Source: Gemmatimonadota bacterium
GTDB lineage: Bacteria; Gemmatimonadota; Gemmatimonadetes; Longimicrobiales; Gaopeijiaceae
Length of the DNA stretch: 64,000 nt
Assembly (NCBI GenBank): GCA_030430625.1
Contig: JAUIKL010000001.1
Coordinates: 62,001 to 126,000 of the forward strand
Reading direction: 5' to 3'
Made by a program: the position numbers and the translations under genes. The notes beneath the pieces were generated by a model. It saw nothing but the letters and a program-made list of their open reading frames with translations. It made no database searches and had not been told where the DNA came from. Shown here in pieces: positions 18,692-29,573 of this stretch (positions within the stretch are counted from its first letter, which is position 1; every line of letters begins with the position of its first letter).

Positions 18692-20214
18692 CGCCCTTTC
18701 CCGTCCGTATCACTCGCGGCGGAGCGCCCGCCGAGATCCATGTCCATGGCCGCCGCCCACGCGGCGTCCGGATCGACTCGACCCGGGTACTCCCTCCGTC
18801 TGCCCGCGCGGGTCAGGAGCACCGCGCCGAACCCGATCTGTGCGGCCGCGAAGACCGCGATCCCACCCGCCAGGATGAAGAGGAAGCCGAACACGCCCAG
18901 GAGGGGCACGATCGAGACGATGTGCCCGGCAATGAACAGCCCCGCGATCCCGATCAGACCACCGAAGAGGGTGAAGATGTGGTTGGACTTCCGGATCCAC
19001 CCCGTCCAAGGGAGGTTGCTGTCCGCCATCCACTCGCCCGCGTTCCTCGCGACGGCCACGAAGCCGAGCACACCCGCCAGGGCAGCCGCCAGAGGGAAGA
19101 GGGGGAGCCAGGCGATCGCGACCGGGATCCCCACGATCGAGATCACGAGGGCGACCGTTCCGAGGAGCCAGACCGGTACGAGGAGGATGCTACCCGCCAG
19201 CCCGACGGCCGCGGAACGACCGGGAGAGCGTCTCGCGGTCTCCGAGACGGCGTCGACGTTCTGTCCCGCGAAGCCGATGAACCCGGCCCCCATGAGCCCG
19301 ATCAGGAAGACCGCGATCAGCTTCTCGACGATGTTGCCGACAGTGCGTGTCACGGGCCGGAAGACCGAGGAGACGCCCCGGCCGTCGCGGTCCCGGCTGT
19401 CACGGAACTCCGCGCGGATCTCGTCACGCAGCTCGGCGCGAAGATCGGAATCCGATTCCCGCTCTTCCTCGAGCAGATCGATGATCCCGTCCCGGACATC
19501 ACCTTCGGAGCGGGCCACCCGTGTGTCCGCCAGTCGGACCTGGCCGAGCACCTCTCCGTCCTCCCTCAGGTCGAGTACCCCGCCGACCACGACCGCGTCC
19601 CCATCCAGCGTACCGTCGATTCGCAGCGTGCCGTCGATCACGACGATCGTGCCCTCGCGGCGATCGGAGATCCGAACGTCTTCGTCCACGTAGACCTCGA
19701 CATCCTCGTCGAGACCGTCGAGCGCCTCCTCCAGAACGTCGAGGCGACCGAGTGACCGGAGGAGGAAACGGCCGAGTGACTCTTCGTCACGCTCGACCCG
19801 GACATCGCGAACCTCGACGTCATCGGCCGAACGGACAGCCCTCTCGAGGGCTTCGTCGACCCGGGTCGCGATCTCGTCCGAGGTCGGCGCTTCCCAGGTA
19901 TCCAGTGCCTCGGCGAGTTCGCCGTTTTCCAGGCTCATAGCGTCCTGGATCAGAGCCCGCCACGCGTCGTCGAGTTCTCCACCGCGCGGATACGAGCCGA
20001 TCTCCGCCCCGTCGACGAAGACCCGTCCGTCCTCGAGAGCGAGGCTGAACTCGGTGTCGTCCTCGAAGACGACGGCGAGAGCGGAGCCGGACGACGACGC
20101 CGAGATGCTCTTGGAGACGATCGCGCGAGACTGCGCGTCGACCGCCGCGGGAAGGACGAGACCGGCGACCACCAGGGCCGTCGCGGCCCTACGAAGCCAG
20201 TCGAGCATGTGCAT
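18688..20214 (-). CDS. Polymer-forming (bactofilin-like) membrane protein
   Basis: A 508-residue protein with a signal peptide (1-28). Residues ~30-150 include an acidic helical region. Residues ~160-235 hold a beta-helix-like stretch with repeated V-I-D-G-T-L/G-D-A units (TIVVIDGTLRIDGTLDGDAV, GGVLDLREDGEVLGQVRLA), resembling polymer-forming cytoskeletal domains. An acidic coiled segment (about 240-275, Glu/Asp/Arg-rich) follows, then about five hydrophobic segments over 290-470 and a short polar tail. It likely spans the inner membrane with the repeat part in the periplasm. It overlaps the anti-sigma gene by 26 bases, and its stop overlaps the next start. The family assignment is by resemblance. 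Confidence 0.65.
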   Translation of the reverse strand: MHMLDWLRRAATALVVAGLVLPAAVDAQSRAIVSKSISASSSGSALAVVFEDDTEFSLALEDGRVFVDGAEIGSYPRGGELDDAWRALIQDAMSLENGELAEALDTWEAPTSDEIATRVDEALERAVRSADDVEVRDVRVERDEESLGRFLLRSLGRLDVLEEALDGLDEDVEVYVDEDVRISDRREGTIVVIDGTLRIDGTLDGDAVVVGGVLDLREDGEVLGQVRLADTRVARSEGDVRDGIIDLLEEERESDSDLRAELRDEIRAEFRDSRDRDGRGVSSVFRPVTRTVGNIVEKLIAVFLIGLMGAGFIGFAGQNVDAVSETARRSPGRSAAVGLAGSILLVPVWLLGTVALVISIVGIPVAIAWLPLFPLAAALAGVLGFVAVARNAGEWMADSNLPWTGWIRKSNHIFTLFGGLIGIAGLFIAGHIVSIVPLLGVFGFLFILAGGIAVFAAAQIGFGAVLLTRAGRRREYPGRVDPDAAWAAAMDMDLGGRSAASDTDGKGR

Positions 20215-21421
20215 AGCGGCCTTCCGAAGGCCGGTCGGTGACGAGGTTGCGGTACAACACGCGCAGCGCGAGGACCGAGACGATCATGTACCCCACGACC
20301 GCCGCACCCAGGAGGAGCGGCGAATCGGAGAGGACTTCCACCGCCGAAGGACCACCGATCGCGGTGACGGCGCGCGTGAACGTTCCGCCGACGGCCGAAC
20401 CCGCGAGACCGACCAGGTCCGCGATCTGCCACGCGACGAAGGACAGGAGGGACCCCATGGTGACGGTCGGGTGGGAGAAGACCGCCCACACCGCGAGGCC
20501 GAAGATCGCGAGAGGAGTCACGGCCATCCCCGTGAGGGCGGCCATGGTCTCCCTGGGTCGACCGAGGGTGCGCCGGATCGCGACGGCCAGACCGGAGCGC
20601 TGGGGCACGGGCGCGGCCGCGGCCAACATCTGCTCGATCCGGTACGCCGCCATGACACGTTCCCCGAAGCCTTCGCTCGGCTCAGGCCGCTCCAGCGCCC
20701 GCAGGTCGACGTGGAGCCGACGCCACGCGTGGACCTCCGAGGCACACGACGCACACTCGCCGACGTGAGCCCGCACACGCGCGACGGCTCGCGGTGTCAG
20801 CGCACCATCGACGAAGTCCTGAAGCAGGGCCTCGGGCAAATGGGCCGACGTGTCCCCCTTGGCGAGTCGGGCGACCCGCTGGCGGATGCGTGCGGCCAGG
20901 GGGAGCGTCGCCGACGCATCCACACGGGCCATGACCCGCTCCCGGAAGCCGTTGGCCGGGGCGAACGAGCGCAGCCCGTCGAGATCCCGGAAGATCACGG
21001 CCCACGTGTCGACTTCGAGACTGCACGACGCGCAGGCGGCCAGGTGCGCTTCGATGCGCTTCGTCCGTCGGGGGCCGAACGCACCCTCGAGGAGATCCTG
21101 GATCGTGTCCTGATCGAGGTGCCCCTCCGCGTCGGCCGACAGGCCGGCCTGAACCCGGTCCCGTACCCGTGCCGCGAGCGGCTGAGGCTGGGGAAGCTCG
21201 ACCTCGGACATGACCCGCTCCGCGAAGCCGTGCAGCGGCCGGTGGGAACCGAGTCCGTCGAGATCCTCGAAGAGGACGCGCCAGCCGTCGAGTTCGGCCG
21301 AACACCGGGCGCACGACTCGAGGTGCTTCTCGGCGGACGCGCGCTCCCGACGGGAGAGCTCGCCCTCGAGAAACGCCTGGAGGCGTTCCGGGCTCAGGTG
21401 ATCGGCGTGCTGTGAACTCAC
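20189..21421 (-). CDS. Membrane anti-sigma factor with three zinc-finger repeats
   Basis: A 410-residue protein. Three consecutive ~95-residue repeats each carry the anti-sigma zinc motif H-x3-C-x2-C: HLESCARC, HLAACASC and HVGECASC. Each is followed by a helix with LDGL/LRAL and then GF-ERVM. Zinc-binding anti-sigma proteins normally have one such domain. The final ~130 residues contain two to three membrane helices (PLAIFGLAVWAVF, LLLGAAVVGYMIVSVLAL). It probably sequesters the sigma factor encoded 142 bases upstream. The GTG start at 21421 has a strong AAGGAG eight bases upstream. It is followed by an overlapping membrane-protein gene. Confidence 0.82.
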   Translation of the reverse strand: MSSQHADHLSPERLQAFLEGELSRRERASAEKHLESCARCSAELDGWRVLFEDLDGLGSHRPLHGFAERVMSEVELPQPQPLAARVRDRVQAGLSADAEGHLDQDTIQDLLEGAFGPRRTKRIEAHLAACASCSLEVDTWAVIFRDLDGLRSFAPANGFRERVMARVDASATLPLAARIRQRVARLAKGDTSAHLPEALLQDFVDGALTPRAVARVRAHVGECASCASEVHAWRRLHVDLRALERPEPSEGFGERVMAAYRIEQMLAAAAPVPQRSGLAVAIRRTLGRPRETMAALTGMAVTPLAIFGLAVWAVFSHPTVTMGSLLSFVAWQIADLVGLAGSAVGGTFTRAVTAIGGPSAVEVLSDSPLLLGAAVVGYMIVSVLALRVLYRNLVTDRPSEGRYAHARLAS

Positions 21422-21563
21422 TTCGGGACTCCTTCTTCGGTCCGTCTCCCACTACGGCTCGGGACCGAGCGAAGTTTCATGAAAAGTGTACCTCGGACGC
21501 CACTCTTTCGAGAGTCCGTAGGCCGATGTCCCACAGGGACGTAGCGCCGGTCCGACATCGTCA

Positions 21564-22232
21564 CTAGGCCAGGTGAGCGAGCGATTTTCTGAGCTCGCCG
21601 CGCGCGCGGTGGAGGTAGGTCTTCACGGTACCGAGCGGGAGGTCCATGATGTCGGCGATCTCGTCGTACGCGTACCCCTCGACGTGGCGCAGGACGATGA
21701 CGGTCCGGTACTCCTCCCGGAGGCCCCCGATGGCGTCTTCGATCTGGTTCCCGAGCTCCCGGTGCTCGACGTATTCGGCCGGGTTCTCGTCCTTCGACTC
21801 GATGACGACCTGGCTCTGACTGATTTCGTCGGCCGTGCGAGCGTGGGGGGACCCGTCGATCGAGACCGTGTCGAGCTTCCGCTTGCGCAGATAGTCGATC
21901 GTGTGGTTGTTCGCGATCTTCAGGATCCAGTTGCTGAACTTGTAACTGGTCTTGTAGGTGCCGATCGCGTTGAAGGCCCGGATGAACGCTTCCTGGGCCA
22001 GATCTTCGGCCAGCGTGCGGTCCCGGACCATCCGGTAGATGAGGGAAAAGACCGGGCGCTCGTAGCGGACGAGGAGTTCGCGGAATGCGGACTCCTGGCC
22101 TCGCGCCGCGAAGGTCGCGAGGTCTCGGTCATCCAGCGTGGCGTAGTCCGGAGCGGCCAGCGTTCGTGATCCCTGCCGTGAGTCAGCGAACCAGCGCGTC
22201 GAGCGCGGCAGAGAAGCGGTATCGGTGCTCAT
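21564..22232 (-). CDS. ECF-type RNA polymerase sigma factor
   Basis: A 222-residue sigma-70 family protein with only regions 2 and 4. Region 2 spans residues ~45-115 (FRELLVRYERPVFSLIYRMV, LAQEAFIRAFNAIGTYK, FSNWILKIANNHTIDYLRKR) and region 4 spans ~165-215 (LREEYRTVIVLRHVEGYAYD, LPLGTVKTYLHRARGELRKS). The linker between is acidic. The ATG at 22232 is chosen over longer frames because the upstream codons look non-coding. It is divergent from ubiE, and the gene after it encodes the three-finger anti-sigma factor. It likely responds to envelope stress given the membrane-protein neighbours; the target promoter is not known. Confidence 0.88.
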   Translation of the reverse strand: MSTDTASLPRSTRWFADSRQGSRTLAAPDYATLDDRDLATFAARGQESAFRELLVRYERPVFSLIYRMVRDRTLAEDLAQEAFIRAFNAIGTYKTSYKFSNWILKIANNHTIDYLRKRKLDTVSIDGSPHARTADEISQSQVVIESKDENPAEYVEHRELGNQIEDAIGGLREEYRTVIVLRHVEGYAYDEIADIMDLPLGTVKTYLHRARGELRKSLAHLA

Positions 22233-22295
22233 CGAGAGTGCCCTACGGTGCCCCGACCTCCGGGGTTTCGACCGCGCGCGCACGCCAGGCTCCCG

Positions 22296-28414: not shown

Positions 28415-29437
28415 CTACCGGCGGAAGCTTCCGAGGAAGTCCGATCCGGCCCGCTTGGCGGCGTCGGCCATCGTGTCGATGAAGTCCTTGGCCCCCTCGG
28501 CGTACGCCGAGGCCGCGTGCTTCAAATCCTCCTGGTAGGCCGGGTCCGGCTCACCGCGCCGCTGGTATTCACCCCGGATGATGCGGTCGTAGTCACCGCT
28601 CTCGATCCAGTCGCGCAGCTCGGCCACCCGGAGGACGTGGAAGGGGTGCGTGCGACCGAGGAGGTTCAGCACCTTGAAGACCTGATCGGCCACGTCCCCG
28701 CCGTCCCGGTACTCCTCGGCCTGGACGATGAACTCCTGCAGGCTCGTCTCGTCGGTCGTACCGCCGCCGGCCATCTTGAGCATCGTGCGCATGACCACCT
28801 CGGGGTCCTGCACACCGAGCAGCCCGGCACGGTCGCAAGACAGTTCGGACTTCCGGCTCCACTCGAGAAGCGCCACCAGCACCGCACGAGCGGCCAGGCC
28901 GACGATGGGGAAGCCCATCCCTGCCAGGTTGATGAGCAGGACCGTCATCGTCTTGTAGAGGACGTGGTCGCTCATGATGTGGGCGATCTCGTGCGCGATG
29001 ACGTACGCGAGCTCGTCCTCGTCGAGAAGGCGAACCGTACCCGAGTTCAGGATGATGAACGGCTTCTCCATCCCGTAGGCGCCCGCGTTCACCATCGGCG
29101 TCTGCGACATGAAGAGCGGGTACTCCTCCGGGGCGTCGAGCGTCTTCAAGCAGGCCTTGTAGACGCGGTACACGTCCGGGAACTGGTTCTCGCTCACCCG
29201 GACCGCGTCGGCCTGGAAGGCGAGTCGAATCGGCTTCTCACCGAAGAACCCGAAGATCTTCTTGAGCACCTCGTCGAAGATCGGAACGCGCCGCAGAGCC
29301 TGAAGCGCGGCTTTGTCCGCCGGGTGCTCCCAGCTGTGCGGCGCGATGTCGGTCAGGATCCGCCTGGAGCGCGTGCCCGTCCCGTTCTGGCCCGCGGCCT
29401 CGTCCTGACCCTCGGTGCGATCCTGTTCGTCCGCCAT
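28415..29437 (-). CDS. M48-family membrane zinc metalloprotease
   Basis: A 340-residue HtpX-type peptidase. The first ~28 residues are polar and rich in Glu, Gln and Gly. The zinc motif is VIAHEIAHIMSDH (HEIAH), with a third ligand in SRKSELSCDRAG. Between them are membrane helices (TVLLINLAGMGFPIV, LAARAVLVALL). Upstream residues 30-110 include a soluble domain (PADKAALQALRRVP). It probably degrades misfolded membrane proteins. The ATG at 29437 has a good GAGAGGAAG upstream. Its own terminator lies at 28333-28372. Confidence 0.88.
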   Translation of the reverse strand: MADEQDRTEGQDEAAGQNGTGTRSRRILTDIAPHSWEHPADKAALQALRRVPIFDEVLKKIFGFFGEKPIRLAFQADAVRVSENQFPDVYRVYKACLKTLDAPEEYPLFMSQTPMVNAGAYGMEKPFIILNSGTVRLLDEDELAYVIAHEIAHIMSDHVLYKTMTVLLINLAGMGFPIVGLAARAVLVALLEWSRKSELSCDRAGLLGVQDPEVVMRTMLKMAGGGTTDETSLQEFIVQAEEYRDGGDVADQVFKVLNLLGRTHPFHVLRVAELRDWIESGDYDRIIRGEYQRRGEPDPAYQEDLKHAASAYAEGAKDFIDTMADAAKRAGSDFLGSFRR

Positions 29438-29573
29438 CGTTCTTCCTCTCTGGATGGGGTCCCCGGACAACGCCGAGGCTCCGTCGTGCTGGCGGGCCTT
29501 ACGGCCCGTCGAACGTCACGGTTTCACTACCCGCCGACCGGGTGAACGGTACACGAAACCGGTCGAGCGCGTT

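Follow-up and report, generated by a model that had tools for sequence, protein, structure and literature searches.

The window (the whole stretch of DNA that we analysed, 64,000 nucleotides of contig JAUIKL010000001.1 from a Gemmatimonadota bacterium) contains a gene for an anti-sigma factor, P0001, beside a gene for an ECF sigma factor, P0002. Table 1 lists the features of the locus; a UbiE-like gene diverges from P0002. The reading frame of P0001 is real; its GTG start at 21421 has the sequence AAGGAG a few bases upstream. The best NCBIfam matches of P0002 were SigW models, with scores under the equivalog cut-offs (162.8 bits for a cut-off of 209 and 146.5 bits for one of 243.1). Judged by its sequence, P0002 is thus SigW-like, not SigW.

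Table 1. Positions (in the window) of the anti-sigma operon, its parts and the promoter-like sites
Feature	Position	Strand	Remarks
Anti-sigma factor gene P0001	20189..21421	(-)	410 aa; three class I anti-sigma domains (ASDIs), then membrane part
ASD 1, residues 8-77	21191..21400	(-)	ligands H8, H33, C37, C40; helix-1 acid E19; helix 4 GFAERVM
ASD 2, residues 101-170	20912..21121	(-)	ligands H101, H126, C130, C133
ASD 3, residues 194-263	20633..20842	(-)	ligands H194, H219, C223, C226
Linker helix ASD 1-2, residues 82-94	21140..21178	(-)	predicted in the model of P0001
Linker helix ASD 2-3, residues 175-187	20861..20899	(-)	predicted in the model of P0001
Membrane part of P0001, residues 289-395	20237..20557	(-)	same make in one-ASD orthologues
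ECF sigma factor P0002, 222 aa, very likely cognate	21564..22232	(-)	directly upstream of P0001, same strand
Envelope protein P0003	18688..20214	(-)	downstream; 26-base overlap with the end of the P0001 gene; weak match to bactofilin
Toast_rack/LiaF-like protein P0004	17849..18691	(-)	downstream of P0003
Promoter-like GAAAC-N17-CGTA before the anti-sigma gene	21453..21478	(-)	motif
Promoter-like GAAAC-N17-CGTA before the sigma gene	22244..22269	(-)	11 nt from ATG
M48 peptidase, candidate regulon member	28415..29470	(-)	promoter-like site at 29500-29525 (-)

The Pfam model zf-HC2 (PF13490) matched P0001 in three stretches (E 4e-22, 78.4 bits, cut-off 22.2), and when the whole genome was searched, the same model hit this frame at three separate places. 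The protein has three H-x3-C-x2-C motifs spaced exactly 93 residues apart, each with a further ligand-like His 25 residues ahead of it and a GF-x-ERVM helix behind it. This confirmed the original prediction of three tandem zinc domains with GF-ERVM tails followed by membrane helices. The description of the repeat as a zinc finger of about 95 residues needs correction in that its period is 93 and that its unit is a whole four-helix class I ASD plus a linker, with the ligands in helices 1-3 and GF-x-ERVM as helix 4. Over 69 columns the repeats are 48% (1-2), 39% (1-3), and 42% (2-3) identical. Two NCBIfam models stayed below their equivalog cut-offs: the anti-sigma model NF052375, which also matched in three stretches (86.6 bits, cut-off 100), and TIGR03988 for RsrA-type redox anti-sigma factors (55.9 bits, cut-off 62.5). 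PADLOC gave no match.

The AlphaFold2 (AF2) model of ASD 2 folded alone had a mean pLDDT of 91.9, with helices at 4-11, 17-29, 31-48, and 59-66. When it was compared with the PDB by Foldseek, the best 14 matches were all anti-sigma chains (ChrR, RslA, RskA), with probabilities from 0.98 to 0.23 and weak E-values (0.14 to 3.2); the comparison with ChrR gave a VIA Z of 7.2 and an rmsd of 12.0 over 69. A sequence-profile search of the PDB found DdvA (2.6e-4) and, weakly, ChrR, RslA, and RsiW (0.02-0.09). The model of full-length P0001 had a pTM of 0.25, which makes the relative positions of its domains meaningless, so that only its local folds count. It repeated the order of helices 1-3 and helix 4 three times, with linker helices in between, and ended with long helices predicted at residues 289-316, 322-351, and 368-395. 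The C-terminal tail (ALRVLYRNL...GRYAH; 20192-20290) was similar to that of one-ASD and two-ASD orthologues; it is a possible candidate for a protease or partner site.

A sequence match, a three-helix bundle with a helix 4, an adjacent ECF sigma gene, and the sigma-contact positions described below were all found, and by all the sequence and fold criteria available P0001 is a class I (ASDI) anti-sigma factor, which bears out its original identification. P0001 shares with ChrR, RslA, RsiW, RskA, RseA, and DdvA the helix 1-3 bundle, ligands of the H-x24-H-x3-C-x2-C type, a helix 4 placed after a linker, and an ECF sigma neighbor. The sigma-binding ASDI is usually single in an anti-sigma factor, as it is in these six proteins, whereas P0001 has three in tandem and 45 of its relatives have two.

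Domain number and sigma partner in related operons

A contig scan with P0001 as the query found no relative, while the alignment of sigma sequences as the query gave Gemmatimonadota loci. The loci named here come from the latter scan (80 kept of 260), the near ones being titled Gemmatimonadota, partly Longimicrobiales. After loci with identical sigmas had been merged, there were 81 distinct Gemmatimonadota sigma loci, and ASDs were counted with a repeat profile in 78 of them, leaving out a locus with a run of N (L120), one at a contig end (L112), and one with no recognizable ASD (L123). In this last locus an orthologous sigma gene was present, with no recognizable anti-sigma gene after it. The gene order, sigma then anti-sigma, was common to the relatives. 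Neighbors corresponding to P0003, P0004, and the UbiE-like gene were found at 75, 68, and 77 of the 78 loci, respectively, indicating that these are orthologous operons. They encoded one ASD in 25 loci, two in 45, and three in 8. Three ASDs were found only in the genus of the window, where all complete orthologues had them (8/8, the window and 7 others).

An orthologue of P0002 (E<=1e-30) was found in 50 of 59 genomes, that of the window included. Whatever the number of ASDs, there was one close sigma orthologue per genome, with the exception of G042, which had a second one at 8.5e-31. Thus, the number of ASDs rose without multiplication of the cognate sigma. Six of the 9 genomes without the sigma had no anti-sigma match and two had marginal ones (4.2e-4 and 7.3e-4); the ninth, G010, which was outside the ASD count, had the C-terminal part of the anti-sigma alone, at a contig end. 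The pair is therefore absent together in the 8 genomes other than G010. Because the two genes are adjacent and co-occur, P0002 is very likely a client of P0001.

One option put forward in the original prediction was binding to different sigmas. If each ASD had an ECF sigma of its own as partner, a single membrane signal would release several of them. Clients could be sought among the sigma-70 region 2 matches of the same genome, 15 of 21 of which had no zf-HC2 neighbor among the loci found; the repeats have diverged (39-48% identity), and there is a precedent in FpvR, one anti-sigma serving two sigmas (PMC4256889). Positive support was nevertheless not obtained, as a single close sigma orthologue (G042 excepted) lies beside the anti-sigma gene at any ASD number, the pair is absent together, and the remaining 5 loci with zf-HC2 in this genome each have their own sigma as a neighbor. 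To our knowledge, FpvR serves its two sigmas without any duplication of its ASD. We consider this explanation improbable.

The history of the array was examined with trees of the sigma and of the repeats. On the sigma tree, in which many forks were open owing to the shortness of the sigma and from which an Acidobacteria locus (L129) was left out, the ASD number required 4 changes; the three-ASD rows belonged to a starred set of 12 that included four two-ASD rows, and so were nested within the two-ASD relatives. The large tree of the repeats (144 rows, without L129, L130, and L133) was poorly resolved. In a separate repeat analysis, ASD 1 grouped with the first ASD of the two-ASD relatives (support 99/92) and ASD 3, weakly, with their second ASD (65/85). 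That ASD 1 and ASD 2 are sole sisters was rejected (p 0.0002), while ASD 2 could derive together with ASD 3 (p 0.45) or with the second ASD of the two-ASD relatives (p 0.19). In two distinct two-ASD proteins (L052, identical to L100, and L101), the second ASD was followed by an extra half unit made of helices 3-4, which suggests, from sequence, that the array is still being remodeled.

In 41 genomes of the phylum, with at least 164 zf-HC2 matches (E<=1e-4), inspection by eye of the matches listed showed frames with two or more matches only at the locus of the window, in a check that is insensitive, since a two-ASD genome (G020) gave a single match. Among eight genomes behind other loci, one, from Armatimonadota, encoded a 368-aa protein with zf-HC2 twice in tandem (L207:1362-2468, (-)), so that tandem zf-HC2 is not unique to Gemmatimonadota. 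This protein resembles P0001 in its tandem arrangement, but has two domains, is not immediately preceded on its strand by any ORF of at least 150 aa within the stretch listed, and is not an orthologue of P0001. Our literature search found no account of tandem, duplicated, or multiple anti-sigma domains, which is weak evidence, as a query for zf-HC2 and anti-sigma did not retrieve any paper either; the terms 'tandem', 'two ASD', and 'multiple ASD' were absent from the main text of PMC7406223. The tandem ASD array is thus a variant of the class I anti-sigma factors for which we found no description.

Sigma contacts and zinc ligands in the repeats

The positions expected to contact sigma were mapped onto the repeats of P0001 through the numbering of RseA. 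They are the contacts common to four solved sigma/ASDI complexes (Table 2 of PMC7406223). In the 8 three-ASD proteins, all of the zinc ligands (12/12) were invariant, and the contact positions were conserved as well: the helix-1 acid (D/E) in 24/24 repeats, the helix-4 Phe and Val in 24/24 each, and the helix-4 Arg in 21/24. Since ligands and contacts were kept in every repeat, we did not find the two degenerate repeats, acting as mere spacers, that would have contradicted the original prediction. Identity was higher at contact columns than at others in ASD 1 (0.76 versus 0.53), ASD 2 (0.67 versus 0.42), and ASD 3 (0.63 versus 0.47). Random draws of columns reached the contact identity 10, 2, and 35 times in 500, respectively, so that the excess is weaker in ASD 3. 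Mean identity amounted to 59% for ASD 1, 49% for ASD 2, and 53% for ASD 3, so that the second and third repeats are the less conserved ones.

On the side of the sigma, R211, which a mapping from RpoE identifies as the arginine pairing with helix 1, was invariant in 10/10 aligned sigmas. Pairing of a sigma Arg with the ASDI helix-1 acid was found in an ECF/ASDI coevolution analysis (PMC7406223). We also compared the distances between ASDs with those between sigmas. For the zinc-type multi-ASD proteins, the partial r beyond the neighbor-gene control was 0.32 for the first ASD (1/500 permutations as high) and 0.37 for the last (0/500). The membrane part correlated more strongly with the sigma (0.65), indicating that this mirror-tree signal is not specific to binding. 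For the 8 three-ASD proteins, the values were 0.46 for the last ASD (9/500), which alone stood out, 0.17 for the first (106/500), and -0.23 for the middle one (415/500).

Zinc ligands were missing from both repeats in 13 of the 45 two-ASD proteins, in which the contact positions were kept (helix-1 acid and helix-4 Arg in 26/26 repeats each). The corresponding loci (L115-L118, L121, L122, L124-L127, L168, L062, and L064), which retained helix 4, clustered on the sigma tree. When a zinc-free ASD was compared with the PDB, only light-harvesting and designed proteins were returned, which we took as chance matches. Two further proteins of the 45 had lost the zinc motif from ASD 1 only, which indicates that one ASD can drift. 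Judging from these sequences, zinc is dispensable and would play a structural role in each ASD.

These data bear on another proposal of the original prediction, namely that the three zinc sites sense redox or zinc in a graded manner. The invariance of the 12 ligands within the genus would agree with it. The loss of ligands in 13/45 two-ASD orthologues with contacts kept argues against it, as does the fact that P0001 is membrane anchored and that its first ligand is a His; in redox switches of the RsrA type this ligand is a Cys. Binding of RsiW to its sigma is independent of zinc (PMC7406223), which also speaks against such sensing. We therefore disfavor this explanation, which appears very improbable.

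Promoter-like sites and the proposed mode of sigma sequestration

The motif GAAAC-N15..17-CGTA was present between the sigma and anti-sigma genes at 76 of the 78 loci (mean of 0.06 after shuffling), the two others being L039, where a near-match was seen by eye, and L063. It also lay no more than 320 nt ahead of the sigma domain at 57/78 loci (shuffled mean of 0.12). Where examined, 10-11 nt separated the end of this upstream site from the start of the sigma or from its first aligned residue at 8/8 three-ASD and 8/10 nearby two-ASD loci, so that the sigma mRNA would be near-leaderless, in contrast to the anti-sigma gene, which has a normal leader with AAGGAG. At the 7 outgroup loci, of which 4 are from Bacillota and 3 from Eisenbacteria, no such site was found between sigma and anti-sigma.

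Across the genome there were 17 GAAAC-N15..17-CGTAG sites, as compared to 3 for the reversed control. Genes close behind them encoded a Phage_holin_4_2 (YvlD-type) protein, a MacB-type permease, a PadR regulator, and the M48 peptidase of the window, while several of the 17 sites had no sensible gene behind them. The genes behind the sites plausibly form an envelope-stress regulon. The system resembles SigW/RsiW of Bacillus by its SigW-nearest sigma, its TGAAAC-N17-CGTA type promoter, its membrane anti-sigma, and a candidate regulon that includes Phage_holin_4_2 (YvlD-type) and Toast_rack/LiaF-like proteins; yvlABCD and this consensus belong to sigma-W. It differs by the scores of P0002 under the SigW cut-offs, by the lack of an inter-gene site at the outgroup loci and by the C-terminal membrane part, which is of another make in RsiW. 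RshA of Corynebacterium is a soluble, single-domain redox anti-sigma. As at our locus, a sigma-type promoter precedes its gene: in SigH/RshA, a sigma-dependent promoter serves the anti-sigma gene alone and was proposed to allow quick shut-off (PMC3489674). An internal sigma-dependent promoter for the anti-sigma gene and the service of two sigmas by one anti-sigma are therefore already known.

Anti-sigma factors are usually modeled as 1:1 titrators. We propose, with slightly more confidence than doubt, that P0001 is a polyvalent, autoregulated membrane trap for the adjacent sigma P0002. Each ASD would clamp P0002, with helix 1 on sigma4 and helix 4 on sigma2, and one chain could keep more than one P0002 molecule at the membrane. 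Free P0002 would drive two promoters, one for the sigma gene itself and a separate one for the anti-sigma gene. The internal promoter, together with two or three ASDs per chain, would provide a large sigma-binding capacity, which we propose to result in a low leak and a fast shut-off. Simultaneous binding of more than one sigma per chain is the most likely reading from sequence, and we give it about an even chance.

The spacing of the domains bears on this point. ASD 2 and ASD 3 were 22-23 residues apart in 8/8 three-ASD proteins; the spacing between ASD 1 and ASD 2 ranged from 1 to 23 residues (1-6 in 4/8), which is more in keeping with domains acting as independent beads than with a single rigid assembly. 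If, on the contrary, a chain held one sigma at a time, the additional ASDs would speed up rebinding or be partly redundant. Such a role would account for ASD 1 being the most conserved and grouping with the first of the two domains in two-ASD relatives, for the loss of the zinc motif from ASD 1 only in 2/45 two-ASD proteins, and for the lack of a sigma-distance correlation of the middle ASD in the 8 proteins. It is hard to reconcile with the conservation of the contact positions in all three repeats of 8/8 proteins and with the variable ASD 1-2 spacing, which offers no fixed geometry for a joint grip on one sigma. We find it rather unlikely.

Returning to a chain that binds several sigmas, its proteolytic destruction would free them together, as proteolytic release takes place with RsiW and RseA. 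In the most elaborate form of this idea, which we put forward tentatively and hold to be somewhat doubtful, P0001 would be a sigma magazine, one chain loading three copies of P0002, one proteolytic cut freeing them all, and the stress response having a gain set by the number of ASDs.

With one, two, and three complete ASDs set against a sigma that was not duplicated, the orthologous series permits direct tests of the stoichiometry, threshold, and gain of sigma sequestration. In the zinc-free two-ASD clade, what zinc does can be told apart from what sigma binding does. If the magazine does exist, the natural 1-2-3 series of the phylum, with its orthologous sigmas, could be used to test the gain.
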